Shown here piece by piece: positions 4,335-25,143 of a DNA stretch of 64,000 nt (the first letter of the stretch is position 1; each line of letters opens with the position of its first letter). The notes beneath the pieces were generated by a model. That model was not told where the DNA came from, did not search any database, and saw only the letters and a list, made by a program, of their open reading frames with translations. The translations under genes were made by a program, and so were the position numbers. The DNA lies in assembly GCA_019636285.1 (NCBI GenBank), contig JAHBXV010000017.1, forward strand, positions 1 through 64,000. The letters run 5' to 3'. This DNA is from Planctomycetaceae bacterium (GTDB taxonomy: Bacteria; Planctomycetota; Planctomycetia; Planctomycetales; Planctomycetaceae).

Positions 4335-5996
4335 CTAATCCGATATGTCAGCCGCCGAAATTGATGCGTGGGCGGGCGGGTCCGCCGGCGGGTCCCGCAA
4401 CCATTGCCGCAGAACTTGAAGAGAATCGGCTTGTTCCGCGCGCATATCCTTCCGCCAGCGGACGATTCGCGGAAATCGCACCGTCAGGCCCGCTTTGTGT
4501 CGCGTCGAGGGCTCGATCGCATCGAAGGCCAGTTCGAAGACCAGTTCCGGAGTCACGCTGCGGACCGGTCCGAATTTCTCCCGAGTGTTTTCCCGCACAA
4601 ACCGATCGATCTCCGCAATTTCTTCATCCGTCACTCCCGCGCCGGTCTTCGCAATCGGGACAAGCAGGTCGTCCTCCCAGACGGCAAACGTGTATTCGTT
4701 AAACCGGTTCGCCCCCCGTCCGTCCCCCGCCTGCACATAGAGCAGCACACAGACAGCCGTCAGCGGGTCGACTTTCCAGGCCCACCAGTCGTCATGCTCC
4801 TGGTTCGTTCGATAGGGCGACGTCAGTCGCTTGAGCATCAAGCCTTCCGCTCCCCATTCACGACTAACCTCACGGAGTTCGGCCAGTTCCTCCCACGTGG
4901 CCGCGACAAGTCCCGGTGACCGCATCAGCGGTTCGCTCATAGATGTCGCCGGTCGCGACATCGGAGAGACGAGATGCTGTTCCAGGCGCGCCCGGCGTTC
5001 AGCCAGCGGCCGCTCGCGCCAGTCGATCCCCACGTCTTCCAACAGATCGAATCCCAGAAACGACGCGGGGACTTCCGCGAGCATCGCCTTACTCGGCTTC
5101 TTGCGATCGACCCGACGCTGCAACGTCGAGAGCGGCAACATGGCACCGTTCCGGATCGCGAGGATGACCCCATCGAGAATGGTTCCGTCGGGAAGGTTTT
5201 GGACGGCCGCCGAAATCTCGGGCAACGTCTCGGTCAGCAGCACATCCCCGCGCGACCAGATCGTGACAGCGCCATCATGCTTCAGAATCTGAGCGCGAAT
5301 GCCATCCCATTTCCATTCAGCCAGCCACTCGCTGAGGGATCCCAAGGACTCCGGTTCCTGCTCCAGTTGGGAAGCTGGCGAAAACAAATATGGCTGTCGA
5401 CAGGGGGTCGCTTCAGTTTCTGGCAAGACGAGTTGGCGGTAAGCCGCGGCAGTGGGCTTCCAGTTTTCCGCCAGTCGTCGCACGACGGTGGCTGTTGGCA
5501 ATTGCGTGACCTCGGCCAGTGCCCGTGCCACCAGTTGTTGCGAGACCCCCGCCCGAAACTGTCCCGTCAGCAACTTGTTCCAGACAAGTCGGCACTCTTC
5601 GGGGAGTTCGAACCAGGCCTGGATCACCGCGTCGCGCTGGCGATCTTCCTCAAGCGATCGCAGGGGAAGCAGGATCTCGTCGATCCAGCGGTGGAAGAGA
5701 CGCTCCTGCACGCCCGTCGGAGGCGGCAACAGCAGCGTCACGGTTTCCGCCAGATCGCCGACTGTGGAGTAGCATTCCTCGAACAGCCACTCGTCAATAT
5801 CCGCCAGTTCGGCTGCCCACCGCGCGAGCAGTCGAGGAGCGAGTGCTTGCCGGATGCGGCGACCGCTGAGGAAGTAGACCGCCCAGATCGCATCAGCCGG
5901 ATCCGCGCTCGCAAAGTATCTGGCGAGCGCGGCCTGTTTCTCCGACGTGCGTGTCGTCTCGTCGAGTTCGCGATACAACGCGGCGAAGTCGCGCAT
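4335..5996 (-). CDS. ATP-dependent DNA ligase, cisplatin-damage-response type
   Basis: A 553-residue ligase. The adenylation motif KWDGIR (Lys229 from the chosen ATG) sits in EWKWDGIRAQI; an N-terminal DNA-binding domain (residues 1-200) comes first, beginning MRDFAALYRELDETT as in the bacterial ligase family known as cisplatin damage response ATP-dependent DNA ligase; an OB-fold domain follows with VDPLTAVCVLLYVQAGDGRG and the motif VRFPRIVRWRKD near the C terminus. It seals nicks in repair using ATP, alongside the essential NAD-dependent LigA. Family members are usually encoded with a PdeM phosphoesterase, a nuclease and an Lhr-like helicase; here only PdeM is visible, 9.5 kb away. The in-frame TTG at 6005 is a less likely start than the ATG at 5996. 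Confidence 0.9.
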   Translation of the reverse strand: MRDFAALYRELDETTRTSEKQAALARYFASADPADAIWAVYFLSGRRIRQALAPRLLARWAAELADIDEWLFEECYSTVGDLAETVTLLLPPPTGVQERLFHRWIDEILLPLRSLEEDRQRDAVIQAWFELPEECRLVWNKLLTGQFRAGVSQQLVARALAEVTQLPTATVVRRLAENWKPTAAAYRQLVLPETEATPCRQPYLFSPASQLEQEPESLGSLSEWLAEWKWDGIRAQILKHDGAVTIWSRGDVLLTETLPEISAAVQNLPDGTILDGVILAIRNGAMLPLSTLQRRVDRKKPSKAMLAEVPASFLGFDLLEDVGIDWRERPLAERRARLEQHLVSPMSRPATSMSEPLMRSPGLVAATWEELAELREVSREWGAEGLMLKRLTSPYRTNQEHDDWWAWKVDPLTAVCVLLYVQAGDGRGANRFNEYTFAVWEDDLLVPIAKTGAGVTDEEIAEIDRFVRENTREKFGPVRSVTPELVFELAFDAIEPSTRHKAGLTVRFPRIVRWRKDMRAEQADSLQVLRQWLRDPPADPPAHASISAADISD

Positions 5997-6030
5997 CGAA
6001 CCCAAACCTACAGCTCAGCCACGGCTGATT

Positions 6031-6108
6031 CGTGTGCCACTGGCTCTGCCAGTGTCTCTTTCTGTGGAAAAACTCCGTAAAGCGCACTGGCGGAGCCAGT
6101 GGCACACG
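6031..6108 (-). repeat. interspersed double-hairpin repeat, copy A
   Basis: Arms 6031-6054 and 6085-6108 are inverted repeats of 24 bases with one mismatch, and each arm is itself a hairpin (CACTGGC-3 nt-GCCAGTG). The spacer is 30 bases. Read in the sense of the minus-strand gene that stops at 6136, it begins 27 bases after the stop codon. The bases between (TAGTGTGTTGTG from the stop codon) resemble the leader of copies C, D and F. It lies between that gene and the downstream DNA ligase, so it may end or attenuate transcription between them. Confidence 0.9.
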
Positions 6109-6135
6109 TCAGCATAGATCTAATGACACAACACA

Positions 6136-8283
6136 CTACGGCGCGCTCGACGGCGGGACCGTTTCGCCCCGACGTCGCGCCCGTTCCCGCTGTCGCTGCT
6201 GCCGTCGTTCCAAGCGCTCTTCCGGCGTCAGTACCGGGGCATTTTGCAGCCGCTCGAAGACCGAGTCGGGAATATAGCGCTCGGCTTCGTCGGGAAGCAG
6301 GGCGCGCGTGGCGAACGGCAGCCATTTGCGCCACGCTGCCGACGGTGATTCGGAAGCGTCGGATTCGCCCCCTGCCTGCTGTACGCCCTTTGACGAGTCT
6401 TCCGGCAGCTTGCCAAGGTCGACTTCCAGCTCTAATCCGTCATTGCCGTCGCGCACGACGGGGAGAATGTTCGACACCGGTTTCGACTTGGCCAGGAACT
6501 GGGTCAATGCCATGGCCGGACCGGCAAAGCTGACCAGGATTGGGTTCCGAACCTCAAGCAGAATTCCCTCGGCCGGGCGGGTCATGCTGACGCTCATCGG
6601 TTTGAGGTAAGGCAGAATCGCCGCGTTCGACGGGAAATCGACCGCCGAGATTCGCACGCCTTCGTCGCCCAGTTTTGCAGCCAATGTGGAGACCGCCCAC
6701 GGCCAGACCGCGAGAACCGTTTGCGCGACGCGCGGCGTATCGACCCACAGCCAGCCGATCGATTCGTTCGGAATCGATCGTGTCTTCGCAAACGAAGCCC
6801 CGCCGTCCGCGATAAACCGCAGATGGGCCTTCAGGCACTGGGGATGAAGCGCGGCGACAATCTGATGAGGCGTGATCGCGAACGACGGCGCGAAGGCGGC
6901 GTCGTCATCGTCAAAAATCATGGTATAGAGCGGAAAGTCCTGGAATGTCGTCTGCTCGAGGCGAAAATCGCCTTTGCCGCCGTCAGCACGACGTTTCAGC
7001 GCGATCATCAACTGGCTGAACACGACGTTGCCGCGCTGGGGATCGCGCAGGTTGACCGACAGGATCGGTCCGCTCAGCAGCAGCCCCCCGGTCGACGGGG
7101 CGTTGTACAAAGTCCAGGTGTCTCCAATCCCGGCCAGCACATCCAGCTGAAAACTGATCCCGAGATCGCGTTCCGTTTGTTTGACGGCTTCGCCGTACAG
7201 CGCCTCGAAAATCGGCGCGATCGTCCGCAACCCCTCGCGAACTCCCAGATCGATCTCCGCGAGACTCAGACTTTTCACGCCCACGAAATCGGCGTCGGCA
7301 GGAACCCGCGCGAGCGCTTCGGCCGTCAGCGGGGGACCGGAGAACAGCCTCAGCAAACCGGCGGCACCAGGCGCTGTCGCGAGCCAGCTTCGCTGGACGA
7401 CTTCACCATTTTCGACCGAGATCGCTCCCATCCAGGGCCCGAGCTGGCGAAGACCAAGACCGTTGGTCACCGTCTCGACCGTGCGGCGACGCGAGTCGCT
7501 GAGTCCGGGAAGAATCGCCGTCATCAGCGACGGGACATCGGCCCAGGCCACCAGGGACAGACGTTCCCGCGTCACGCGGTTCCACGCATCGGCGAACTCC
7601 GGCCGTGCCGCCAGTTCGCTCTCCGCGCCGTTGGCGAGCCGCTGGGCGATCCGTTCGGGCAATTCCGTCCCGTACGCGACTGCGACGCGACCTTCCAACT
7701 GCATGACCGTCAACGGAATCGCCAGTGGTGTTCCGGCTGCTTCCGGCACGAAGACAACCCGATTGCCGCTGGTTGTGTGCTCCCAACCAGTCCTATCGAC
7801 GATCAACTGAACGATCGCCGCGAAGGTCGCGCTGGCCCGGTCTTCCCCGACGGAAAGGACAACAGCCCCCTCCAGCCGCGCGGGCAGGCTCAAAAGGGGC
7901 GATTCGCTCCCTTCGATCGGCGGAGCCATCGCCACGAACAGGCAACCGGGGTCGGACAGGAGTTCGCGCGTCAGATCGGCCAATTCGCGTGGCGACTTCC
8001 CGTGGGAATCGCGATCGGCTGCCTTATCAAGCGTGGAGTTCAGGATGCCCTCGAGCTTATCCACGAACGCGACAATCTCGGGGTCGGCGATCCACCCGTC
8101 GATGCCGGGCGCGCCGGGCTTTCCGGCTGAGCGCTCCGCCCATTCGACATACACCTGGGCGTGGGCCGGCGGCAATTTGATGAGATCGGCATCGCGCTGA
8201 CCGGGGGGCTGACCCAAAAACCCGCCTCCACCGGTCAGGAGAATCAACAATTCCAGGACACCAACACTCGGAATCGACTGCAT
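6136..8283 (-). CDS. exported DUF3352-like protein of unknown function
   Basis: A 715-residue protein with an N-terminal hydrophobic stretch (VGVLELLILLTGGGGFLG) that looks like a signal peptide or anchor. The ATG at 8283 has AAGGAG seven bases upstream, which decides it against the ATG at 8301. The body shows the pattern of large planctomycete secreted proteins related to DUF3352: long alternating strands, PPAHAQVYVEW near the start and VPADADFVGVKSLSLAEID mid-protein, with no catalytic motif that I can name. The C terminus is a basic, charged tail (EERLERRQQRQRERARRRGE). Repeat copy A follows the stop codon. It is divergent from the synthase gene at 8694. Probably periplasmic or envelope-associated; function unknown. 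Confidence 0.65.
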   Translation of the reverse strand: MQSIPSVGVLELLILLTGGGGFLGQPPGQRDADLIKLPPAHAQVYVEWAERSAGKPGAPGIDGWIADPEIVAFVDKLEGILNSTLDKAADRDSHGKSPRELADLTRELLSDPGCLFVAMAPPIEGSESPLLSLPARLEGAVVLSVGEDRASATFAAIVQLIVDRTGWEHTTSGNRVVFVPEAAGTPLAIPLTVMQLEGRVAVAYGTELPERIAQRLANGAESELAARPEFADAWNRVTRERLSLVAWADVPSLMTAILPGLSDSRRRTVETVTNGLGLRQLGPWMGAISVENGEVVQRSWLATAPGAAGLLRLFSGPPLTAEALARVPADADFVGVKSLSLAEIDLGVREGLRTIAPIFEALYGEAVKQTERDLGISFQLDVLAGIGDTWTLYNAPSTGGLLLSGPILSVNLRDPQRGNVVFSQLMIALKRRADGGKGDFRLEQTTFQDFPLYTMIFDDDDAAFAPSFAITPHQIVAALHPQCLKAHLRFIADGGASFAKTRSIPNESIGWLWVDTPRVAQTVLAVWPWAVSTLAAKLGDEGVRISAVDFPSNAAILPYLKPMSVSMTRPAEGILLEVRNPILVSFAGPAMALTQFLAKSKPVSNILPVVRDGNDGLELEVDLGKLPEDSSKGVQQAGGESDASESPSAAWRKWLPFATRALLPDEAERYIPDSVFERLQNAPVLTPEERLERRQQRQRERARRRGETVPPSSAP

Positions 8284-8693
8284 CGTGCGCTCCTTCGTCA
8301 TTCGTCGCTGGTAGCCGGTGGGCGCGGTCGTCGCGCTACCAGACTACCTGTTCTTCGCCATCCCAGGCGGCTTTCACGGGCTGGATGGAATTTCTTCCCT
8401 GCCAGAAATCATGGTAGGCCGGGGCTCCGGCCAAAGAAAGCGGGAACGGGGATTCCCCACTCACATCGGCCGTCATGAATGTTTGGAGCGCGTGCAATTG
8501 CGTCGGGAATCGCCGTATACTTTCCAGTTCTCCACCGGCTTCGCTCGGTGGGGCGGCGGCGGTCAATGTGTGCGCCGCGCGTAGCCCTCTCGACATGATG
8601 TCGTTCCCTGACAGCATTCTTGGCCGGCTTTCCAGCCCGATCTTTCGGATCGGGTGTTCGCGGCGGGTTCAAGCGATCTCTTCGAGCCTTCGC
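8284..8693. other. divergent intergenic region between DUF3352-like gene and PfaA-like gene
   Basis: About 410 bases separate the two divergent start codons. It must carry promoters for both genes, but I see no convincing -35/-10 pair. Open frames through this stretch on both strands read as proline/serine-rich noise and lack ribosome binding sites. The PfaA-like frame stays open leftward to 8475 with other ATGs at 8595 and 8598, so its start is uncertain within this stretch. Confidence 0.4.
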
Positions 8694-11600
8694 ATGACTC
8701 AAAATGGTTCCATTCGGTCCGAAGCCCTCGCGATCGTGGGGCTGAGTTGCCTGTTTCCCAAAGCGACCAGCGTCGAACAGTTCTGGCAAAACCTGCGCGA
8801 CGGCGTGGATGCCATCACCGAGGTTCCCGCCACTCACTGGAACCCCGACGACTACTTTGACGCCGATCCCAAACAGCCCGACATGACCTACGCGCGGCGG
8901 GGCGGCTTTCTGGAGCCGGTCGCGTTCGATCCGCTGGAATTCGGCATCTCCCCCAACAATCTCGAAGCGATCGATACGTCGCAGCTTCTGGGACTGGTCG
9001 CCGCCAAGCGGGTTTTGGAAGACGCAGGTTACGGACCCGACCGCGAGTTCGATCGCAACCGGGTCGCCTGCATACTGGGCGTCACCGGCACGCTGGAAAT
9101 GGTGATTCCGCTGGGGGCCCGTCTGGGGCACCCCCGCTGGAAGAAGGCCCTTGCCGAGGCGGGTGTTGCCCCCGAAGTCGCCGACGATGTCATCGCCCGA
9201 ATCGGCGAGTCGTATGTCCCCTGGCAGGAAAACAGCTTTCCGGGATTGCTGGGGAACGTCGTCGCGGGACGGATCGCGAACAAGCTCGACCTGCATGGAA
9301 CCAACTGCGTCGTCGATGCGGCCTGCGCGAGTTCGTTGAGCGCGCTCCACCTCGCGTGTCTGGAACTGTGGACCGGCCGCGCTGATCTGGCGATCACCGG
9401 CGGGGTCGACACGTTCAACGACATCTTCATGTACATGTGCTTCAGCAAAACCCCCGCTCTTTCGCCGAGCGGGGATGCGAAGCCGTTTTCCGAGAACGCG
9501 GACGGGACCATCCTGGGCGAAGGGGTGGGTATGATGGCCATCAAACGCCTTGCAGACGCCGAACGCGATGGCGATCGCATTTACGCGGTGATCCGCGGCA
9601 TCGGTACCTCCAGCGACGGCGCCGGCAGCGCGGTCTACGCGCCGAAGGCCGACGGTCAAATCCGCTGCCTCGAAGACGCCTACCGCACGGCTGGCGTCGA
9701 GCCGGACACGATTGAACTGATCGAGGCCCACGGAACGGGCACGAAGGTGGGCGATGCCACCGAAGTCAGCGGACTGATGACAGTCTTCTCGCGATCGGAA
9801 CGGCAGCGGCCGTGGTGCGCGATCGGTTCGGTCAAATCGCAGATCGGTCATACCAAGGCGGCTGCCGGTGTCGCGGGCGTGATGAAAGCCGTGCTGGCGC
9901 TACGCAATCGCGTGCTGCCGCCGACCATCAAGATTCAGTCTCCGCCCGCTGCCATGCTGGCCGACGAGTCGCCGTTCTTCGTGAATACGCAGGCGCTGCC
10001 GTGGCTCGGCAATAGGCGGCATCCCCGCCGCGCGGGGGTCAGCGCGTTCGGTTTCGGGGGCAGCAACTTCCATTGCGTGTTGGAAGAATCGCCCCAGCCG
10101 ACGAGTGAGCCAGCCTGGACCGGCGATGTGCAGATCATCGCGCTGTCCGGACCGACGCCGACTGCCATCCGTCAAAAGATCGACGCATTCCCAACCGGGC
10201 AGTCGTGGTCCGCGATCCGTCGACAGGCCGCGCGATCACGCAGCGAATTCCGTGCAAGTGATCCACATCGTCTCCTCGTCGTTGTCGAAAAGGGACGTAG
10301 CGATCTCGCGAAGATTCTCGCCGATGCTCGCGGCCTACTGGAAAGTCGACCCGATCAATCGTCTTGGACCACGCCGGACGGCGCGTTCTATGGCAGTGGA
10401 GCCAAAACCGGACGGCTGGCCGTGTTGTTTCCCGGCCAAGGGTCGCAGTATCCCCACATGCTCCGCGACCTGGTATGTACCTTCCCCGCGATGCGGGAAG
10501 TCCTCGAAGACGCTGACGAAGCGGTAGAAACAACAGACGCCCGGTTGGGGACTGCCATCTATCCTCGCCCGGCCTGGAACGACGAGACACGTCGCCAGCA
10601 GGCCGAGACGTTGCGCGCGACCGATGTCGCACAGCCCGCGATTGGCGCCGTCAGCCTGGGAGCGTTGTCCGTTCTCGATCAGTTCGGTGTGAAGCCGGAA
10701 CTGACCGGCGGTCACAGCTATGGCGAACTGACGGCCCTCTGCGCTTCGAAACGATTCGGAGCGGAAGCCCTCTATCGGCTGTCACGGTTGCGTGGCCGAT
10801 TGATGGCCGAGGCCCAAGAGGTCGCCGGGGGCATGCTCGCGGTTGGCGCGCCGCTGGAGATGGTTGAAGAAGCCATTCGCGAAGCGGCTGTTGATGTCGT
10901 CATCGCCAATCGCAATGGTCCCAGCCAGGTGGTGCTCTCGGGACGCCTGCCCGAGATCGAACGGGCCGAAGACTTGTTCGCCCGCCGCAATGTGCGCGGC
11001 CGTCGGCTTCAGGTCGCCGCCGCTTTTCATAGTCCGCTCGTCGCGAGTGCCAGCACGCGGTTCCGCGAAGTTTTGGGCGATGTCGAATTTCAGCCCGCCG
11101 AAATCCCGGTCTTTGGGAATACCCTGGCCGACGAGTACCCCGCCGATCCCGAGGAAGCCCGCGACCTGCTTGCCGGCCAACTGGCTCGACCGGTCGAGTT
11201 CGTCCGGCAGATCGAGAACATGCTCGCCGCTGGAGCGGGGCTGTTCCTCGAAGTCGGTCCCGGCAACACGCTGACGGGACTCGTGCAGTCGATTCTCTCC
11301 GGCCGCAATGTCCGCGCGATCTCGCTCGACGCATCGAGTGGCAAGAAACGCGGGTTGGTCGACTTGGCCAACACGCTGGCAACGATCGCCTCCTGGGGCG
11401 GTCCGGTTGATCTGGCGCCGTGGGATGCAGGGACACTGCCCCGCGAAGCCGATGTCGATCCCAACGATGGACGGCTGCGGATCCCGCTCAGCGGGGCCAA
11501 CTACGTCAAACCACGGACTCCACGTCCCCCCAAGCCACCGACAAAGACGCCAGTCGCCGCCACCGCGTCGGTTGCTCCGGCTGCCAGTGCGCCTGTCGCG

Positions 11601-14600
11601 AAGCCCGCTCCCGCGCCGGTGCGTTCGCAAGCTCCCGTTGCGACTCCTGAAACTCGTCCAGCCGCTCCAGCGGTCGCGGTCGCACCGAAACAAACTTCCA
11701 TACTTCCCGCGCCGTCCGCTGGCGCGACAAAGGTCTTTGAGACTCCCGCCACGATGACTGCATCTCCCGCCGTGCTTCAATCCCTCGCCCTGCTGCAACA
11801 ACTGCAAACCGATACGGCCCGGCTGCATCAGCAGTTCCTGGTCGGTCAGGAAGAAACGCTCCGCACGATGGAGCGCGTGCTGGGGATCGGCAGTCCCGCG
11901 GCTCCGCGAACGGTGGCTGCCCCGGCGATGCCGCAACCTGTGATGGCTCCCACGCCTGTCGTCTTGGCGCCCCCCGCACCGGTCGCCGCGATTCCAGCCG
12001 TGGCTGTGGCTCCGCCGCCAGTCCAGGCCGTCGTCGCGGCTCCGCCACCGCAGCCGGTCGAAGTGCCGCGTCCGGTCACACCGGCGCCCGTGGCAACCAA
12101 GCCGGCTCCTGTCGCGGCGGCAAACGACCAACTCTCAACCGTGCTGCTGTCAGTCGTTGCCGAGAAGACCGGCTACCCACCGGAAATGCTCCGGCTGGGG
12201 ATGACGCTCGACCACGATCTGGGGATCGACTCGATCAAGCGAGTCGAGATTCTCTCTGGCCTCCAGGAAAAACTCCCGCATCTGCCAGCGGTGAAGCCCG
12301 AAGACCTCGGAACACTCCGCACGCTGGAAGACATCGTCGCCCTGTTGGCCGGAGCGGTGGGTGACCAGCCTGTCGCCACATCAGCACAGACTGCGGCTGC
12401 GTCTCCCTCGGCGGCGGAAGGCGCACTAGCCGAGACACTACTGGCAGTGGTCGCCGAGAAAACCGGCTACCCGCCAGAAATGCTGCGGTTGGGGATGACG
12501 CTCGACCACGACCTGGGCATCGATTCGATCAAGCGAGTCGAAATCCTCTCAGGCTTGCAGGAAAAGCTCCCGCAACTCCCGGCTGTAAAGCCCGAAGACC
12601 TGGGCACGTTGCGAACGCTCGAAGACATCGTCGCGTTGCTGGCGGGAACGGTCCCGGCGGTGGCAGCGCCCGCTTCAACGGGTCAGCCTGCTTCTTCCTC
12701 GTCGACGAATGGGGACCTTGCCGGCGTGCTGTTGTCCGTCGTCGCGGAGAAGACCGGTTACCCGCCGGAGATGCTGCGTCTCGGAATGACGCTCGATCAC
12801 GACCTGGGAATCGATTCGATTAAGCGAGTCGAGATCCTCTCGGGTCTTCAGGAGCAACTCCCGCAACTGCCAGCCGTCAAACCCGAAGACCTGGGAACGC
12901 TGCGAACGCTCGAAGACATTGTCGCGCTGCTGGCAGGCAGTCCGGCGGCGACACCGGCTCCGCCACCGACGCCAACGCCCGCTCCGGTTCAAGCGGTCGA
13001 ACCGTCCAGCGAATCGACGCCAGAGACAGTCGCCAATCCGCTGGAGCGTTGCCTCGTTCGTCCCGTCGATCTGAACACCGTCGGCCCGCGTCCCAGCCGA
13101 CCGAAGGCCGGTGGCGACTGGTGGGTTTCGGATGACGGCTCCGAACTGTCGCTGCAAGTTGTCCGGGGACTCGCCGATGCCGGTTGTCGCCCGCACCTGG
13201 TGGCCCTCGACTCGGAACCGATCGATCCGCCTGCGGAATTAAACGGCTTGATCGTAATTGCGGCTGAGGCCGGAACGACGGTCGAGCAACATTGGCAGGC
13301 CATTCGCTGGTTGCAGGCAGCCGGTCCTCGCCTGAAAGAGCGAACCGGGCTGGTGGCGACGGTCAGCCGCCTCGATGGGGCCTGCGGTTTTGGCTCAACT
13401 CCTATTCGCGATCCCCTCTCGGGCGGTCTGTCGGGGCTCTCCAAGACCGTTCGCCATGAATGGCCGATGGTTTCCGCGAAGGCCATCGACCTGGGAGACG
13501 GCTGGTCCTCTCCGGCGGACGCAGCCGATGCCGTGGTGCGAGAACTGCTGATCGACGGCCCAACGGAAGTCGGCATCACGCCCCAGCGCGTTGTGGGATT
13601 GGAAGTCGTTCTGGATCAATCCATCGCCGATTCCACCGAGGAAGACGCCGCATCGTCTCTGTCAGTGGGCGATCTCGTCATCGTCACGGGCGGAGCGCGC
13701 GGCGTGACGGCGGCATCGCTGATCGCTGTCGGTCGTCGGATGCCGCTTCGAATCGCGATCCTGGGTCGCAGTCCCGTGAAAGACGCGGAAGCCGACTGGT
13801 CGCGGGAGCTGCTCGATGCGCGGCAGTTGCGGACAGCCCTCATCGAGCGGGCGGAACAGGGGGCAACGCCCCGCGACATCGATCGACGTTTGCAGGAAAT
13901 TCTCGCCGGGCGCGAGGTGCGAACCACGCTGGCAACCCTGGAATCGCAAGGCTGCGAAGTCAGCTATCACGCCGTCGACGTCCGCGACGCTGAAGCCGTC
14001 GTGCCGGTGATTCAGCAGTTACGGCTGGAGTGCGGCCCGGTCCGCGGCATCATTCATGGCGCGGGCGTGCTCGCCGACCAGACCATTGAAGGCAAAACGC
14101 GCGACGCGTTCGATCGCGTGCTGGGAACCAAGATTGACGGTCTCGCGAATGTTCTGCGGGCCATCAATACCGATGAATTGAAGCTGCTGGCCGTCTTTTC
14201 CTCATTCACGGCTCGTTATGGTCGGACGGGGCAACTCGATTACGCCATCGCGAACGAGAGTCTCAACAAGTTGAGTCAGGATTTCGCCCGTCGTTTCCCG
14301 TCGTGCCGCGTGGCTTCGTTCAACTGGGGCCCTTGGCAGGGGGGCATGGTGACGCCGGGGCTGAAGTCGCTGTTCGAAGCGGAAGGCGTGGGTCTGATTG
14401 GCCTCAACGAAGGTGCGGACCTCTTCGCGCGAGATGTGCTGGCTACCCGTGGCCCCTGCGAGATCGTGGTGCTCGCGCGGCCCGAAAAACCGGCCGTCTC
14501 TGCTCCCTCGCTCCTGGGAGTCGCCGGACTGCAAACGGCTGCCGCCGTGGCCGCCGAGCCCGTTGAAGCCCACCCGGCTGCTGCCATTCCACGTTCGATG

Positions 14601-15443
14601 CCGCGTGTGGCGATGGAACGGGAACTCGATCTCGATCGCGCGCCGTGTCTGGCATCGCACGTCCTCGGGAAGCAAGCCGTCTTTCCGGTAGCGCTCTTGC
14701 TCGAATGGCTGAGCCAGGCCGCGCTGCACGGCAATCCCGGACTCGAGTTCGTGGGAGCTAGCCAGTTGCGCGTGTTCCGGGGGATCCGACTGTCGCCGTC
14801 CGAATCGCTGCGCGTTCGCCTGGCGGCCGAAAAGCCGCGCCGCGAGGGGGGCGAATTCCGCATTCCCGTCCAACTCGTGAGCGTGCATGGCGACCAGCTG
14901 ACCCCACATGCGGCGGCTGAAGTGATCCTGGCGGGGCGTGCTCCGTCGGCTCCCGAGCCGCGACTGCCGTTGCCCCAGGAAATCTGGACGCACGGCGAAG
15001 CGAACGTCTACGACCGCTGGCTGTTCCACGGACCGGCGTTCCAGGGACTGACGCGCGTCGAACGCCATTCGGACGAGGGAATCCTCGTCCGCAGCCGGGT
15101 CGCACCCGCTCCTGCCGAATGGTTCCGCGATCCGTTGCGGCCCAACTGGATCGCCGATCCGCTGGCAGTGGATGTCGCGCTGCAGGCCGTCATTCTGTGG
15201 TGCCAGGAGCATCGCGGATCGCCATGCCTGCCGTCGCTTCTGGGCGAGTATCGACAGTTCGTGACGACCTTCCCGCCCGATGTGCGCGTGAACGTCCAGA
15301 TCACCGAGAGCCGCGATCAACTCGTGCGAGCCGACGTCGAGTGGCTGTCTCCCGAAAACGCGGTGCTGGCCACGCTGACAGGAAGCGAGCATGTCGTCGA
15401 CAAGGCGCTTGCGGGGGCATTCCAGGCAAACGCACTGGCGTAG
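8694..15443 (+). CDS. PfaA-like polyketide/polyunsaturated fatty acid synthase, KS-AT-ACP x3-KR-DH
   Basis: A 2249-residue type I megasynthase. In order: ketosynthase (about 10-450; Cys211 in DAACASS, His346 in EAHGTG, His386 in IGHTKA), acyltransferase (about 575-880; FPGQGSQ, nucleophile Ser675 in GHSYGE), an Ala/Pro-rich linker (about 945-1140), three tandem ACPs with phosphopantetheine serines Ser1180, Ser1278 and Ser1375 in LGIDSIKRVEIL, ketoreductase (GGARGV near 1665, Tyr1850 in GQLDYAIAN), and a C-terminal dehydratase-like hot-dog domain (His1989 in HVLGKQAVFP). The tandem ACPs and domain order match PfaA of secondary-lipid synthases rather than modular polyketide synthases. PfaB, PfaC and PfaD partners and a phosphopantetheinyl transferase are not in the window. 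Product unknown. The start is uncertain: no clear Shine-Dalgarno, chosen because MTQNGSIRSEALAIVG fits KS N termini. Confidence 0.9.
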   Translation: MTQNGSIRSEALAIVGLSCLFPKATSVEQFWQNLRDGVDAITEVPATHWNPDDYFDADPKQPDMTYARRGGFLEPVAFDPLEFGISPNNLEAIDTSQLLGLVAAKRVLEDAGYGPDREFDRNRVACILGVTGTLEMVIPLGARLGHPRWKKALAEAGVAPEVADDVIARIGESYVPWQENSFPGLLGNVVAGRIANKLDLHGTNCVVDAACASSLSALHLACLELWTGRADLAITGGVDTFNDIFMYMCFSKTPALSPSGDAKPFSENADGTILGEGVGMMAIKRLADAERDGDRIYAVIRGIGTSSDGAGSAVYAPKADGQIRCLEDAYRTAGVEPDTIELIEAHGTGTKVGDATEVSGLMTVFSRSERQRPWCAIGSVKSQIGHTKAAAGVAGVMKAVLALRNRVLPPTIKIQSPPAAMLADESPFFVNTQALPWLGNRRHPRRAGVSAFGFGGSNFHCVLEESPQPTSEPAWTGDVQIIALSGPTPTAIRQKIDAFPTGQSWSAIRRQAARSRSEFRASDPHRLLVVVEKGRSDLAKILADARGLLESRPDQSSWTTPDGAFYGSGAKTGRLAVLFPGQGSQYPHMLRDLVCTFPAMREVLEDADEAVETTDARLGTAIYPRPAWNDETRRQQAETLRATDVAQPAIGAVSLGALSVLDQFGVKPELTGGHSYGELTALCASKRFGAEALYRLSRLRGRLMAEAQEVAGGMLAVGAPLEMVEEAIREAAVDVVIANRNGPSQVVLSGRLPEIERAEDLFARRNVRGRRLQVAAAFHSPLVASASTRFREVLGDVEFQPAEIPVFGNTLADEYPADPEEARDLLAGQLARPVEFVRQIENMLAAGAGLFLEVGPGNTLTGLVQSILSGRNVRAISLDASSGKKRGLVDLANTLATIASWGGPVDLAPWDAGTLPREADVDPNDGRLRIPLSGANYVKPRTPRPPKPPTKTPVAATASVAPAASAPVAKPAPAPVRSQAPVATPETRPAAPAVAVAPKQTSILPAPSAGATKVFETPATMTASPAVLQSLALLQQLQTDTARLHQQFLVGQEETLRTMERVLGIGSPAAPRTVAAPAMPQPVMAPTPVVLAPPAPVAAIPAVAVAPPPVQAVVAAPPPQPVEVPRPVTPAPVATKPAPVAAANDQLSTVLLSVVAEKTGYPPEMLRLGMTLDHDLGIDSIKRVEILSGLQEKLPHLPAVKPEDLGTLRTLEDIVALLAGAVGDQPVATSAQTAAASPSAAEGALAETLLAVVAEKTGYPPEMLRLGMTLDHDLGIDSIKRVEILSGLQEKLPQLPAVKPEDLGTLRTLEDIVALLAGTVPAVAAPASTGQPASSSSTNGDLAGVLLSVVAEKTGYPPEMLRLGMTLDHDLGIDSIKRVEILSGLQEQLPQLPAVKPEDLGTLRTLEDIVALLAGSPAATPAPPPTPTPAPVQAVEPSSESTPETVANPLERCLVRPVDLNTVGPRPSRPKAGGDWWVSDDGSELSLQVVRGLADAGCRPHLVALDSEPIDPPAELNGLIVIAAEAGTTVEQHWQAIRWLQAAGPRLKERTGLVATVSRLDGACGFGSTPIRDPLSGGLSGLSKTVRHEWPMVSAKAIDLGDGWSSPADAADAVVRELLIDGPTEVGITPQRVVGLEVVLDQSIADSTEEDAASSLSVGDLVIVTGGARGVTAASLIAVGRRMPLRIAILGRSPVKDAEADWSRELLDARQLRTALIERAEQGATPRDIDRRLQEILAGREVRTTLATLESQGCEVSYHAVDVRDAEAVVPVIQQLRLECGPVRGIIHGAGVLADQTIEGKTRDAFDRVLGTKIDGLANVLRAINTDELKLLAVFSSFTARYGRTGQLDYAIANESLNKLSQDFARRFPSCRVASFNWGPWQGGMVTPGLKSLFEAEGVGLIGLNEGADLFARDVLATRGPCEIVVLARPEKPAVSAPSLLGVAGLQTAAAVAAEPVEAHPAAAIPRSMPRVAMERELDLDRAPCLASHVLGKQAVFPVALLLEWLSQAALHGNPGLEFVGASQLRVFRGIRLSPSESLRVRLAAEKPRREGGEFRIPVQLVSVHGDQLTPHAAAEVILAGRAPSAPEPRLPLPQEIWTHGEANVYDRWLFHGPAFQGLTRVERHSDEGILVRSRVAPAPAEWFRDPLRPNWIADPLAVDVALQAVILWCQEHRGSPCLPSLLGEYRQFVTTFPPDVRVNVQITESRDQLVRADVEWLSPENAVLATLTGSEHVVDKALAGAFQANALA
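12127..12945 (+). repeat. tandem near-identical ACP-coding repeats
   Basis: Three direct repeats of about 220-230 bases, with periods near 291-294 bases, encode the three ACP domains of the PfaA-like synthase. Their protein sequences are almost identical (VVAEKTGYPPEMLRLGMTL, then LGIDSIKRVEIL in each), while the linkers between them differ (Ala/Pro/Ser-rich). Synonymous differences are scattered through the copies, so they are not fresh duplications, but the protein has been kept uniform. Confidence 0.85.
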
Positions 15444-15449
15444 GGTTGC

Positions 15450-16160
15450 TTATTGGGGCCGAGTTGTCGATCGCTCTCGCCGCGTCCACCGCGGCGGCCT
15501 CGGTTGGCGCGCGCGACACGGTATGACGGCGTCGCCCGCGATCGCATAGGCCGCGTCACCCGGCTGTAGCGCGACACGTCCGCCGCCTGTGAAACCACCG
15601 AATGCTGGAAGAACGGTGAGGTCCGGGCGGCAGTGAAAACAGGCCAGCCGTTCGGACTGATCGGCGAGGCCAGTCAGCCGGATGACGGGGTGGATGTGCC
15701 CTGCCAGCACATATCCATCTGGCGACGATTCCGGTTCGTGTCGGCCGATGAACGGCCCCTCGTGGAACTCCTGGCAGACTGCAATCGACCAGTCGGCCGG
15801 AGGATCGCCGGCGTGCCGGTCGTGGTTTCCCAGCACGAGGACGATTTCCAACTGCCGATGCCGGGCTCGCCAGTCCGACACGACCTGTAGCGTGGCTTCA
15901 TGGCGGCCCGTCCGCGCGTGAAGCAGGTCTCCCAGCACCACCAGTCGCTCGGCAGTCGTCGTTTGCAGCAGCGCGGTCAATCGATCGAGATCGCGGGACG
16001 TGGTTCCGCCGGGAATCGGGATGGCGGCCGCGCGAAACGCGGCGGCTTTGCCGATATGCAGATCGGCGATGAACAACGTCTTACATGCGGGCCAATACAG
16101 GCCGCGTTCGGGATGAAGCTCGACCGGCGTGTCGGCGAGCAATATTGGTAGCCCCGCCAT
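15450..16160 (-). CDS. pdeM: ligase-associated DNA damage response phosphoesterase PdeM
   Basis: A 236-residue calcineurin-like phosphoesterase. All metal-binding motifs are present: FIADLHIGK (Asp, His), VVLGDLLH (Gly-Asp), LVLGNHDRH (Asn-His-Asp) and LAGHIHPV (His-x-His). The stretch IPIPGGTTSRDLDRL is characteristic of PdeM, the endonuclease usually encoded beside a bacterial ATP-dependent DNA ligase, a nuclease and a helicase for repair of DNA damage. The matching ligase is at 4335-5996, so the usual cluster has been broken up. GGAG lies eight bases before the ATG. The gene converges on the PfaA-like gene with only six bases between stop codons. The C-terminal 40 residues are basic and probably disordered. 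Confidence 0.85.
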   Translation of the reverse strand: MAGLPILLADTPVELHPERGLYWPACKTLFIADLHIGKAAAFRAAAIPIPGGTTSRDLDRLTALLQTTTAERLVVLGDLLHARTGRHEATLQVVSDWRARHRQLEIVLVLGNHDRHAGDPPADWSIAVCQEFHEGPFIGRHEPESSPDGYVLAGHIHPVIRLTGLADQSERLACFHCRPDLTVLPAFGGFTGGGRVALQPGDAAYAIAGDAVIPCRARQPRPPRWTRRERSTTRPQ

Positions 16161-20393: not shown

Positions 20394-22286
20394 ATGGCGA
20401 TTCAAGACAAGATCATCGGTATCGACCTCGGAACGACGAACTCGGTCGTCTCTTTGATGGAAGGGGGCGAAGTCGTCGTCATCCCGAACCAGGAAGGGGC
20501 CCGGACCACCCCCAGCGTTGTCGCTTTCACCGAGAAGGGAGATCGCCTCGTCGGTGATCCGGCGAAGCGCCAGGCCGTCACGAACCCGCACAACACGATC
20601 TACTCGATCAAGCGGTTCATGGGTCGCCGCCACAAGGAAGTCGGCAACGAAGAAAAAATGGTCCCCTACAAGATCGTGGGCGGCCCCGATGAATACGTGA
20701 AGGTCGAAGTCCACGGCAAAACGCACACGCCGCCGGAAATCTCGGCGATGATTCTGCGCAAGCTGAAGGAAGCCGCCGAAGCCCACGTCGGCCATACCCT
20801 CACGCGAGCCGTCATCACGGTTCCTGCCTACTTCAATGACGCGCAGCGCCAAGCGACGAAGGACGCGGGCGAAGTCGCCGGCCTGAAGGTCGAGCGGATC
20901 ATTAACGAGCCGACGGCTGCCGCCCTCGCTTACGGACTCCAGAAGAAGAAGGACGAAAAGATCGCCGTCTTCGACCTTGGGGGCGGGACGTTCGACATTT
21001 CGATTCTGGAAGTCGGCGACGAACTCGTCGAAGTGCTGAGCACCAACGGGGACACGCACCTCGGTGGGGACGACTTCGACCAGGCGCTGATCGACCACAT
21101 TGCCTCGCAGTTCCAGAAGGAGCAGGGAATCGACCTGCGGAAGGACGCGATGGCTTTACAGCGTCTCCGCGAAGCGGCCGAGAAGGCGAAGAAGGAACTT
21201 TCGAGCCAGCAGAGCACCGACATCAACCTGCCGTTCATAACCTCGGAAGGGGGAGTGGCGAAGCACCTCCAAATGTCGATCACGCGGGCCGAGTTCGAAC
21301 GCCTGATCGATCCGCTCATCGAACGCTGCCGCATTCCGGTCGAGAACGCGCTGAAAGACGCAAAACTCAAGCCTTCGGACATTGACGAAGTCGTGCTGGT
21401 GGGCGGCTCGATCCGTGTGCCGAAGGTTCAGGAACTGGTCAAGAAGATCTTCGGCAAGGAACCCCACCGTGGGGTGAATCCGGACGAAGTCGTGTCGATT
21501 GGCGCCGCCATTCAGGGGGCCATTATCACGGGCGACGTGAAAGACGTCGTGCTGCTCGACGTGACGCCGCTGTCGCTGGGTCTGGAAACCGAAGGGGGCA
21601 TCATGACGGTCCTCGTCGAACGTAACACGACGATCCCCGTCACCAAGAAGGAAACCTTCTCGACAGCCGCCGACGGCCAGACCGCCGTGACGATCAGCGT
21701 CTACCAGGGCGAACGGCCGATGGCGAAAGACAACCGCCTGCTCAGCCAGTTCAACCTGGAAGGGCTTCCTCCCGCTCCGCGCGGCGTGCCGAAGATCGAA
21801 GTGACGTTCGATATCGACGTCAACGGCATCCTGAGCGTGAAGTCGAAGGATACGGCGACCGGTAAAGAACAATCGGTCCGGATCGAGAACGCCAGTGGTC
21901 TCGACGACAAAGATATCGAACGGATGAAGAAAGACGCTGAGTCGCACGCCTCCGAGGACAAGCGCCGCCGCGATCTCGCCGAAGCGAAGAACAAGGCGTC
22001 GACCATGGTCTACGAGATGGAGAAGCAGCTCAAGGAGCATGGCGAAAAGCTGGATGCAGGCTCCAAGTCGGCGATCGAGTCGGCCATGGAAAAAGTGCGC
22101 ACGGCCGAGAAGGGCGACGACCCGGCCGAGATCAATGCCGCGGTCGAGCAGCTTCAACAGGCCGGCTACGCCATGGCTCAGCACATCTACGGCGACGGCG
22201 GCGGCCAGCAGGTCCCCACCGACGGCGAAGCCGAAGCTCCGAAGGATGATGGCGTCATCGACGCCGAGTTCGAGAAGAAGAGCTAA
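20394..22286 (+). CDS. dnaK: molecular chaperone DnaK (Hsp70)
   Basis: A 630-residue Hsp70 of normal length. The ATPase domain starts [19 protein letters not shown], with the second phosphate motif [14 protein letters not shown] and the adenosine motif [13 protein letters not shown]. The substrate-binding domain follows ([14 protein letters not shown], then [16 protein letters not shown]), and the lid ends in [12 protein letters not shown]. It refolds proteins in the cytoplasm with DnaJ and GrpE, neither of which is nearby. GGGGGT lies ten bases before the ATG. One detail: the usual GG(M/S)TR(M/I)P reads GGSIRVP. It is followed after 244 bases by clpB on the same strand, making a disaggregation pair. 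Confidence 0.98.
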
Positions 22287-22298
22287 GTCGATCAAGGC

Positions 22299-22333
22299 CA
22301 TCCCCTGTCGCTGCACGTCGGCGGCAGGGGATG
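22299..22333 (+). terminator. hairpin after dnaK
   Basis: Thirteen bases after the dnaK stop, CATCCCCTGTCGC (22299-22311) pairs with GCGGCAGGGGATG (22321-22333) with one mismatch around a nine-base loop. It is a strong stem in the right place for a terminator, but there is no T-run after it, so it could instead protect the 3' end or be Rho-assisted. Confidence 0.5.
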
Positions 22334-22416
22334 TGCTGGATTACGAAAAAGTCCTGTTCGCTGGCAGCCACCTGTCAGCCTTCGTTTCTGCCCTCCGTTC
22401 CAGTCGGGTAACGATC

Positions 22417-22443
22417 GCTCCTGCGCGGGTTTATCGCAGGAGA
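22417..22443. promoter_or_regulatory. inverted repeat upstream of clpB, 9-base spacer
   Basis: CTCCTGCG (22418-22425) and CGCAGGAG (22435-22442) form a perfect 8-base inverted repeat with a nine-base spacer, flanked by ACGAT on both sides (22411-22415 and 22442-22446). The geometry is like the CIRCE operator bound by HrcA (9-9-9), but the bases differ. It sits about 90 bases before clpB; a possible -10 box TAGAAT follows at 22489-22494. It could be a heat-shock operator or a transcribed hairpin. Confidence 0.4.
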
Positions 22444-22530
22444 CGATTTCCCACACCTGACCTACCACTCGCCGTTCGGCATTTCGAGTAGAATCTAAAT
22501 CTCCTTTCACCGTCTCGGGAGGCTCTTTTC

Positions 22531-25143
<2,613 letters not shown>

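Follow-up and report, generated by a model that had tools for sequence, protein, structure and literature searches.

The locus described here raises the question of whether a large lipid synthase gene, standing apart from any recognizable partner, works alone or has its partners somewhere else in the genome. The window, i.e., the whole stretch of DNA analysed, comprises 64,000 nucleotides of contig JAHBXV010000017.1 (assembly GCA_019636285.1) from a Planctomycetaceae bacterium, and the gene in question, pfaA, lies on its forward strand. A first-pass annotation had read it as a PfaA-like secondary-lipid synthase without PfaB, PfaC or PfaD partners nearby, and had offered two explanations, partners encoded elsewhere or a stand-alone type with a different product. 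The lack of nearby partners was confirmed: no pfaB, pfaC or pfaD adjoining pfaA was found when the window proteins were scanned with Pfam and NCBIfam, and the neighbours are a 721-amino acid protein and PdeM. We consider it highly probable that pfaA codes for the A subunit of a Type I Pfa synthase in dispersed form, with the remaining subunits encoded at other sites of the genome, and that this synthase feeds OleA, probably for a C31:9-like hydrocarbon. The gene would look orphaned because the ancestral cluster broke up in the family to which the window belongs. The domains, the partners, their homology to contiguous clusters, their co-occurrence and their dispersal, which carry this reading, were all read from sequence.

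The open reading frame is intact, encodes 2249 amino acids, and has the domain order ketosynthase (KS), acyltransferase (AT), three acyl carrier proteins (ACP), ketoreductase (KR) and dehydratase (DH), the last being C-terminal and of the polyketide synthase (PKS) type according to the Pfam and NCBIfam scan. An in-frame ATG at 8475 is possible as an alternative start; homology begins just past the ATG at 8694. With the NCBIfam model for PfaA, TIGR02813, the protein scored 1541.1 bits (curated cut-off 1010.1), i.e., 1541 bits versus 688 with the general type I PKS model, and it shows the order KS-MAT-tandem ACP-KR(-DH-PKS) which defines that family. The initial identification as a PfaA-like synthase of the order KS-AT-ACP3-KR-DH therefore stands. 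The features are as follows.

8694-15443, forward strand: pfaA gene, 2249 amino acids, KS-AT-ACP3-KR-DH (open reading frame; TIGR02813, 1541 bits; Pfam domains)
8721-9935, forward strand: ketosynthase domain (Pfam PF00109/PF02801; DAACASS at 9315-9335, EAHGTGT at 9723-9743, GHTKAAAG at 9846-9869)
10425-11291, forward strand: acyltransferase domain (Pfam PF00698; GHSYGE at 10710-10727, AAFHSP at 11019-11036)
11793-11849, forward strand: conserved AT-to-ACP linker, LQQLQTDTARLHQQFLVGQ (the pattern derived from it occurs in 21/22 PfaA frames and 0/20 PfaBC frames)
12147-12356, forward strand: acyl carrier protein domain 1, LGIDSIK (Pfam PF00550, three stretches)
12441-12650, forward strand: acyl carrier protein domain 2, LGIDSIK (Pfam PF00550)
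12732-12941, forward strand: acyl carrier protein domain 3, LGIDSIK (Pfam PF00550)
13680-14339, forward strand: ketoreductase domain (Pfam PF08659; TGGARGV at 13686-13706, LDYAIAN at 14235-14255)
14607-15383, forward strand: PKS-type dehydratase domain (Pfam PF14765 above its cut-off, PF21089 below its own cut-off; SHVLGKQAVFP at 14655-14687, VDVALQ at 15168-15185; AlphaFold2 model; PDB PKS dehydratases)

Motifs of this kind in KS, AT, ACP, KR and DH domains serve catalysis, and the presumed catalytic residues were all found in the window protein, as had been noted at first sight: Cys and two His in KS, Ser and His in AT, one Ser in each of the three ACPs, Tyr in KR, and His and Asp in DH. No enoyl reductase, chain length factor (CLF) or FabA-type domain was detected inside the protein in the Pfam scan.

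The genome to which the window belongs (6.37 Mb, 113 contigs, 99.77% complete) was searched for the partners; its contigs are numbered with C, and pfaA is on C23. One match to PfaD was found, on C37, with 634 bits and above the TIGR02814 cut-off. Contig C82 encodes a 2211-amino acid KS-CLF-AT-FabA protein, i.e., a fused PfaBC as in Type I systems, with an AT below the TIGR02816 cut-off. Its best sequence match in PDB was 6riw 'ORF10', which we take for the KS-CLF part of PfaC from Moritella marina. Directly 3' of pfaBC, oleABCD homologues, among them one for an OleB-like hydrolase, follow one another in the same order as in Geomonas and Singulisphaera, the OleA scoring 488.7 bits with PRK09258 (cut-off 285). 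Three phosphopantetheinyl transferase (PPTase) matches were recorded. Judged by sequence, the best candidate for pfaE appears to be the stand-alone PPTase on C88, which shares 35 and 38% identity with frames immediately following oleD in two Geomonas genomes. The pathway thus occupies at least four places in the genome, pfaA, pfaD, pfaBC-oleABCD and the PPTase. The pfa genes do not form one cluster but lie on C23, C37 and C82, and for that reason we file the system as a dispersed variant of Type I. Contig ends fail to explain the separation, since PfaD is at least 84 kb from both ends of C37 and cannot adjoin pfaA, and if C82 and C23 did adjoin, a distance of no less than about 15 kb would still lie between pfaA and PfaBC.

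There were 17 KS matches in the genome, six of them in multidomain frames and the remainder in frames shorter than 540 amino acids. The five multidomain KS proteins other than the window PfaA scored 815.7, 802.1, 435.6, 338.5 and 307.2 bits, all short of the 1010.1 bits at which the PfaA model is cut off. Contig C24 (L025:1999-13960) carries a second PfaA-like system, consisting of a 1403-amino acid KS-AT protein with a sub-threshold ACP match, a 476-amino acid KR, a 1649-amino acid KS-AT-like-DH protein with a C-terminal PPTase, and then a sulfotransferase. A third system on C26 (L027:3500-16666) comprises a 3277-amino acid KS-KS-AT-ACP3-KR-DH-DH synthase, which reached 802 bits with the PfaA model and stayed below the cut-off, an adjacent PPTase, a short-chain dehydrogenase/reductase (SDR) and a GH3-family protein.

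Homologues of these partners flank PfaA in other bacteria, and of the two explanations first offered it is the one with partners elsewhere that is supported, with PfaBC, one PfaD and three PPTase matches found at other places in the genome. A scan of named genomes gave 80 pfaA loci (designated L), and the flank counts use only loci with enough flank. Outside the Planctomycetaceae clade, pfaBC lies directly downstream of pfaA at 44 of 47 loci, the exceptions being L125, L129 and L138, compared to 0 of 8 inside the clade; pfaD lies directly upstream at 64/64 loci outside and 8/10 inside. The run pfaD-pfaA-pfaBC-oleA-oleB-oleC-oleD is unbroken in Geomonas sp. Red32, Singulisphaera acidiphila and a Baikal Gemmataceae metagenome-assembled genome (MAG), and the partial flanks of Geomonas limicola and Singulisphaera GP187 are consistent with the same run. 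OleA homologues with E values of 1e-83 or better were present in all 31 pfaA genomes tested, 3 of them in the clade; this test covered 31 of the 80 named loci. The KS-AT part of the window PfaA is 53-61% identical to the named loci outside the clade. At L125 (Gemmataceae ACE_PLA22) oleC and oleD are located upstream of pfaD-pfaA and no pfaBC follows, i.e., this is an intermediate or a rearranged cluster outside the clade. Two loci, L080 and L093, are from MAGs titled Klebsiella pneumoniae. Both have the cluster, and in the KS-AT tree they fall together with a MAG of the Gammaproteobacteria; these titles look wrong.

The same 170 genomes of the order (designated G) were searched with PfaA, PfaD, PfaBC and OleA of the window genome. 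The PfaA and PfaBC searches scored the best 5 and the best 2 candidates per genome, respectively, and the PfaA and OleA figures apply among the matches listed. PfaA of at least 59% identity was found in 24 of the 170 genomes, plus G139 with weaker fragments only, and PfaD of at least 57% in 25. PfaBC matches at E 1e-60 occurred in 31 genomes, comprising the same 25 with orthologous pieces (46-73%), three with diverged proteins (G001, G107 and G108) and three with KS-only matches (G056, G067 and G162). OleA of at least 73% was found in 24 of the 25, one of these being a contig-edge fragment, and in none of the other 145, where the best match was 49% over half the length. Orthologues of all four proteins are confined to the same 25 genomes, and three more have a diverged set. 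The searches for OleB, OleC, OleD and PPTase covered 28 genomes, the 25 together with G001, G107 and G108. Among the 25, OleC was found in all, OleD in 24 (not in G093), OleB in 24 (not in G147), and the C88-like PPTase in 23, missing in G093 and G139, both less than 90% complete. The diverged pfa set of G001, G107 and G108 is linked (PfaA 47%, PfaD 49-53%) and accompanied by OleB-, OleC- and OleD-like genes of 44-56%; no C88-like PPTase was found in these three genomes. Judged from these sequences, the eight-gene pathway is scattered and yet retained in the planctomycete family of the window. Regarding G147, its contigs C1214 and C917 suggest that this MAG carries a dispersed PfaA plus a diverged linked pfaA-pfaBC pair of 46% identity, and its PfaA is identical to that of a record titled Schlesneria.

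The dispersal is real in the finished genomes G089, G091, G092 and G148, where the eight genes are spread over six or seven places of the chromosome. G148 (7.07 Mb) has seven: pfaD-pfaA at 0.07, pfaBC at 5.33, PPTase at 5.53, oleB at 5.55, oleD at 5.66, oleA at 5.78 and oleC at 6.58 Mb. The places in G089 (7.28 Mb) are oleD at 0.47, pfaD-pfaA at 1.13, pfaBC-oleA at 4.93, oleB at 4.97, PPTase at 6.07 and oleC at 7.26 Mb, and those in G092 (5.42 Mb) are pfaD-pfaA at 0.59, oleD at 2.11, oleB at 3.42, PPTase at 3.86, pfaBC-oleA at 4.30 and oleC at 4.63 Mb; the genes of G091 (5.21 Mb) are grouped as in G092. Across the family (groups designated g), the groups g51 (Schlesneria-titled records), g42, g44 and g27 have pfaD next to pfaA; in the window genome and three genomes of the genus g5 the two genes are apart. 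The pair pfaBC and oleA adjoin in the window genome, g5, g42, g44 and G135 of g51, and are far apart or on different contigs in the g51 genomes G134, G136-G138, G140-G146 and G148, and in G070. In G089, G091, G092, G134, G143, G145 and G148, oleBCD were not found next to oleA in the flanks read, and were found elsewhere in these genomes.

Genome G092 is Planctopirus limnophila DSM 3776, as 8000 of 8000 compared plasmid bases are identical to NC_014149.1. We take Planctomyces limnophila and Planctopirus limnophila to be one species. Under the former name it is the sole representative of the Type J cluster, which consists of pfaD and pfaA, was called 'apparently partial', and was attributed to the transfer of only part of a cluster resembling Type I (PMC3098273). 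By its sequence the Type J cluster looks dispersed rather than partial, because pfaBC-oleA, oleB, oleC, oleD and a C88-like PPTase are located elsewhere on the same chromosome. In the literature searched, mostly at the level of titles and the beginnings of abstracts, no report was found of a planctomycete pfa set split over the chromosome. That ole genes may lie apart from pfa genes is already published (PMC3098273); what is new, as far as the literature searched goes, is that the pfa set itself is split, and that the scattered pathway is nevertheless present as a whole in one planctomycete family, to which the species with the supposedly partial cluster belongs.

The KS phylogeny that had been called for places the window KS-AT among sequences from pfa clusters. 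The tree has 108 rows (the window, 80 named loci, 25 from further genomes and 2 from the genome's own C24), comes from a quick search, and includes nine duplicate rows and flagged long branches. The window falls into a family clade of 31 rows, 22 of them distinct sequences, with a Shimodaira-Hasegawa-like approximate likelihood ratio test (SH-aLRT) support of 99, and its sister group (92) consists of three Gemmataceae rows, among them L117 with a contiguous cluster. The window groups with the Geobacteraceae, Singulisphaera and Gemmataceae rows, which is taken as a Type I placement, and the genome's own C24 synthases fall outside. The outcome that would have spoken against the first-pass annotation, a second full pfa set with its own PfaA and a grouping of the window protein with a modular polyketide family, was not obtained: the five other multidomain KS proteins of the genome are under the PfaA cut-off, and the KS-AT fell among pfa-cluster sequences in a tree made up of the 108 rows named above. 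Trees of PfaA, PfaD, PfaBC and OleA, built from 13 of the 25 clade genomes and 4 outgroups and with long branches flagged, all separated the 13 from the outgroup (support 100/99, 83/85, 98/99 and 100/99). The pairwise distances of the four proteins correlate, with r 0.89-0.96 among the clade genomes and 0.78-0.95 when the outgroups are included (17 genomes), which is consistent with joint descent from one cluster as far as the sequences go. A single pfaD-pfaA separation event shared by the window genome (G000) and g5 was considered and found unsupported, as the trees do not join the two.

From these observations we infer how the subunits would work together, which PPTase would serve them, what they would make and in which direction the arrangement changed. 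The stand-alone PPTase, C88 being the best candidate, would activate the ACPs of PfaA, upon which AT would load malonyl units on the three ACPs, KS elongate, KR reduce and DH dehydrate. PfaBC from C82, with its KS-CLF-AT and FabA-type dehydratase/isomerase, and the PfaD enoyl reductase from C37 would act in trans to provide the remaining condensation, isomerization and saturation. A polyunsaturated acyl-ACP, 16:4-like by analogy, would then be passed to the OleA encoded directly behind pfaBC, and OleA-B-C-D would couple two acyl chains head to head; by analogy with Geobacter and Shewanella, the resulting long polyene hydrocarbon would be C31:9-like. Throughout the clade seen, the ancestral run pfaD-pfaA-pfaBC-oleABCD would have come apart at the pfaA-pfaBC junction; the window genome and the genus g5 would have lost the pfaD-pfaA link as well. 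Planctomycetes were reportedly among the olefin producers tested in a survey of 2010. Published work describes KR as reducing, enoyl reduction as following the PKS-type DH, and FabA-type DHs as giving cis double bonds (PMC9702510). OleA draws acyl chains from Pfa synthase in vivo; OleA together with Pfa synthase in Escherichia coli gave a 31:8 ketone, and the full Ole set in Shewanella a 31:9 hydrocarbon (PMC6463001). Geobacter bemidjiensis, a producer of C31:9, has a tandem arrangement of pfaD,A,B,C, oleABCD and pfaE (PMC4882568), and a role of Type I clusters in supplying olefin synthesis was put forward by Shulse and Allen (PMC3098273).

Several points weigh against this interpretation. Chain length and double-bond number cannot be read from sequence, and the product is a prediction from the genes. 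Possession of both pfa and ole does not suffice: in Photobacterium profundum SS9, oleABCD stand beside pfa and no polyene hydrocarbon was detectable (PMC6463001). The scores of some partners are low: the AT of PfaBC reached 80.6 bits against the PfaB cut-off of 144.3 (TIGR02816), OleC 630.9 (cut-off 900) and OleD 456.5 (cut-off 580) are both under the NCBI olefin-specific cut-offs, the best model for OleC is a general fatty acid CoA ligase family, whose cut-off of 478 was passed with 685.2, and the best one for OleB is haloalkane dehalogenase, with 176 below the cut-off of 241. The C88 PPTase assignment depends on 35-38% identity at two Geomonas loci only of 104 loci searched, and no such PPTase was found behind oleD in the Singulisphaera and Gemmataceae stretches (L164 and L166). 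No OleA or OleB match was obtained in G147 (1340 contigs), nor an OleA above the 42-45% background in G001, G107 and G108, and the window genome has the two further PfaA-like systems on C24 and C26. In the distance comparison of PfaA, PfaD, PfaBC and OleA, which had no control gene, plain vertical descent of each gene would look the same as joint descent. The trees are compatible with either one or two pfaD-pfaA split events in the window genome and g5. In the cases of unlinked pfa and ole genes described by Shulse and Allen, these authors argued against a coordinated transfer (PMC3098273), which speaks against joint descent there.

The dispersed synthase could instead make a membrane-lipid polyunsaturated fatty acid (PUFA), similar to eicosapentaenoic (EPA), docosahexaenoic (DHA) or arachidonic acid (ARA), and the Ole proteins beside PfaBC could use part of it or ordinary fatty acids. 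In Shewanella and related bacteria PfaABCDE acts as the PUFA synthase (PMC3098273). Both EPA and the hydrocarbon are listed as products of S. pealeana, and P. profundum SS9 with its ole genes makes EPA and no detectable hydrocarbon (PMC6463001). We regard this as unlikely in view of the direct adjacency of pfaBC and oleA in the window genome and the contiguous relatives, the presence of OleA with PfaA, PfaBC and PfaD in 24/25 genomes versus 0/145 others among the matches listed, and the C31:9 made by G. bemidjiensis with the same gene set (PMC4882568).

That PfaA partners the C24 system (KS-AT, KR, KS-DH-PPTase, sulfotransferase) or the C26 system (KS-KS-AT-ACP3-KR-DH-DH, PPTase, SDR, GH3) instead of PfaBC is very improbable. 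Both systems are present in the genome, and in G007 a C24-like gene begins about 6 kb past the end of pfaA, but each has its own KS, AT, KR and DH, and PfaBC and PfaD are present in all 25 genomes with a window-type PfaA. C24-like genes (39-42%), by comparison, occur among the PfaA-bearing genomes in G000, G007, G008 and G134, and also in G067 and G162, which lack this PfaA, among the matches listed. The same 25 genomes bear on the stand-alone iterative PKS with a different product, the other possibility first offered. It draws on the union of KS, AT, ACP, KR and DH in one protein and on the missing adjoining partner, but no enoyl reductase, CLF or FabA-type domain was detected in PfaA, and among the matches listed in the 170 genomes of the order a window-type PfaA never occurs without PfaD and PfaBC. 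With PfaD and PfaBC present in 25/25 of the genomes with this PfaA, the stand-alone reading was set aside and hardly deserves credence. Subunit A of a dispersed Type I synthase is the reading we retain.

Two details of the protein had attracted attention. The DH motif had been described as shifted, which did not survive comparison: the His-x8-Pro spacing is the same in the window and its relatives, and the window H-VLGKQAVF-P differs from relatives such as H-VLGGKAVL-P in the fifth position as the sole change, Gly to Lys. Two other rows also miss that Gly among 57 rows, which were chosen by a pattern allowing G, K, E or D at the Gly position. In the 34 of these 57 DH domains that were aligned, His, Pro, Asp and Gln are invariant (34/34). 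The AlphaFold2 model of the domain predicts a PKS dehydratase fold with a mean predicted local distance difference test (pLDDT) score of 94.5, and compared to PKS dehydratases in PDB the model gave a best Z of 25.6 and a root-mean-square deviation of 3.4 Å over 255 residues, with concordant Foldseek results. Both the alignment of relatives and the predicted fold led us to reject a shifted motif. A terminal PKS-type DH of subunit A has been described for eukaryotic PUFA synthases, and prokaryotic ones carry both kinds of DH (PMC9702510). The other detail is the triple ACP. Pairs of the three ACPs share 67/70 amino acids and only 171-174/207 nucleotides, and because amino acid identity is high while nucleotide identity is much lower, they have the look of old, constrained repeats rather than of a recent duplication. 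Counted by motif, the number of ACPs ranges from 1 to 6 in 35 complete PfaA frames, which passed a strict filter from 89 loci and include three repeats of one genome. More ACPs are reported to raise productivity with an unchanged profile (PMC5067506). Given this range among relatives and this reported effect, three ACPs are unremarkable. A shared docking linker, with the pre-ACP helix of PfaA recurring in PfaBC, was dropped as a candidate on the counts given for the linker pattern above.

The 721-amino acid protein at 6136-8301, called 'DUF3352-like' initially, has no Pfam or NCBIfam match at E 0.001. Together with pfaA its gene sits between an ATP-dependent ligase (TIGR04120) and PdeM (TIGR04123) at 4335-16160, both above cut-off. 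Ligase and PdeM presumably belong to a ligase-associated DNA-damage set and are usually adjacent, and pfaA may have landed inside this set. Seven window neighbours (ligase, 721-amino acid protein, PdeM, CPBP, ABC ATPase, TerC and the open reading frame at 17-19 kb) were tested in three g5 genomes and none was found near pfaA, except for a 35% ABC ATPase match near pfaA in G007; a conserved pfaA neighbourhood was dropped after this test. Further downstream, at 20394-25143, dnaK is followed by clpB, each above its model cut-off.

Compared to known systems, the closest likeness is to Type I with oleABCD in the G. bemidjiensis arrangement, which shares the KS-AT-ACPn-KR-DH PfaA, fused PfaBC, PfaD and OleABCD, the PPTase being present in Geomonas, and has the same relative gene order wherever blocks survive in the window genome; the difference is that here the genes are spread over at least four places. 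Type J of P. limnophila has orthologous PfaA (62%) and PfaD (60%), but pfaD adjoins pfaA there and is apart from it in the window genome. Types A/B (EPA and DHA clusters of Shewanella and Moritella) have the same subunit logic (PMC3098273), and the window protein passes the NCBI PfaA model; the window system differs in having PfaB and PfaC fused, partners dispersed and ole genes directly behind pfaBC. Enzymes and chemistry are of a known family, and the window gene is a Type I PfaA of the ordinary sort, the unusual thing being its genomic setting. Genome mining based on clusters takes such genes for orphans or fragments, as with the 'apparently partial' P. limnophila of the 2011 typology, and the presence in the same genomes of subunits homologous to the clustered ones corrects the orphan or partial reading. 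From this finding, a cultured planctomycete would be expected to make a polyene hydrocarbon, and the case is a clean example of a megasynthase pathway surviving without gene clustering. Tentatively, and with considerable doubt, we suggest that the eight genes (pfaD, pfaA, pfaBC, oleA, oleB, oleC, oleD and PPTase) have been progressively unlinked, down to seven places, and kept as a set, which would need trans-acting co-regulation and could let one synthase give different products according to subunit supply. If this is true, the levels of PfaA, PfaBC and OleA would be separately tunable, and a polyene acid, a ketone or a hydrocarbon could come from one synthase.

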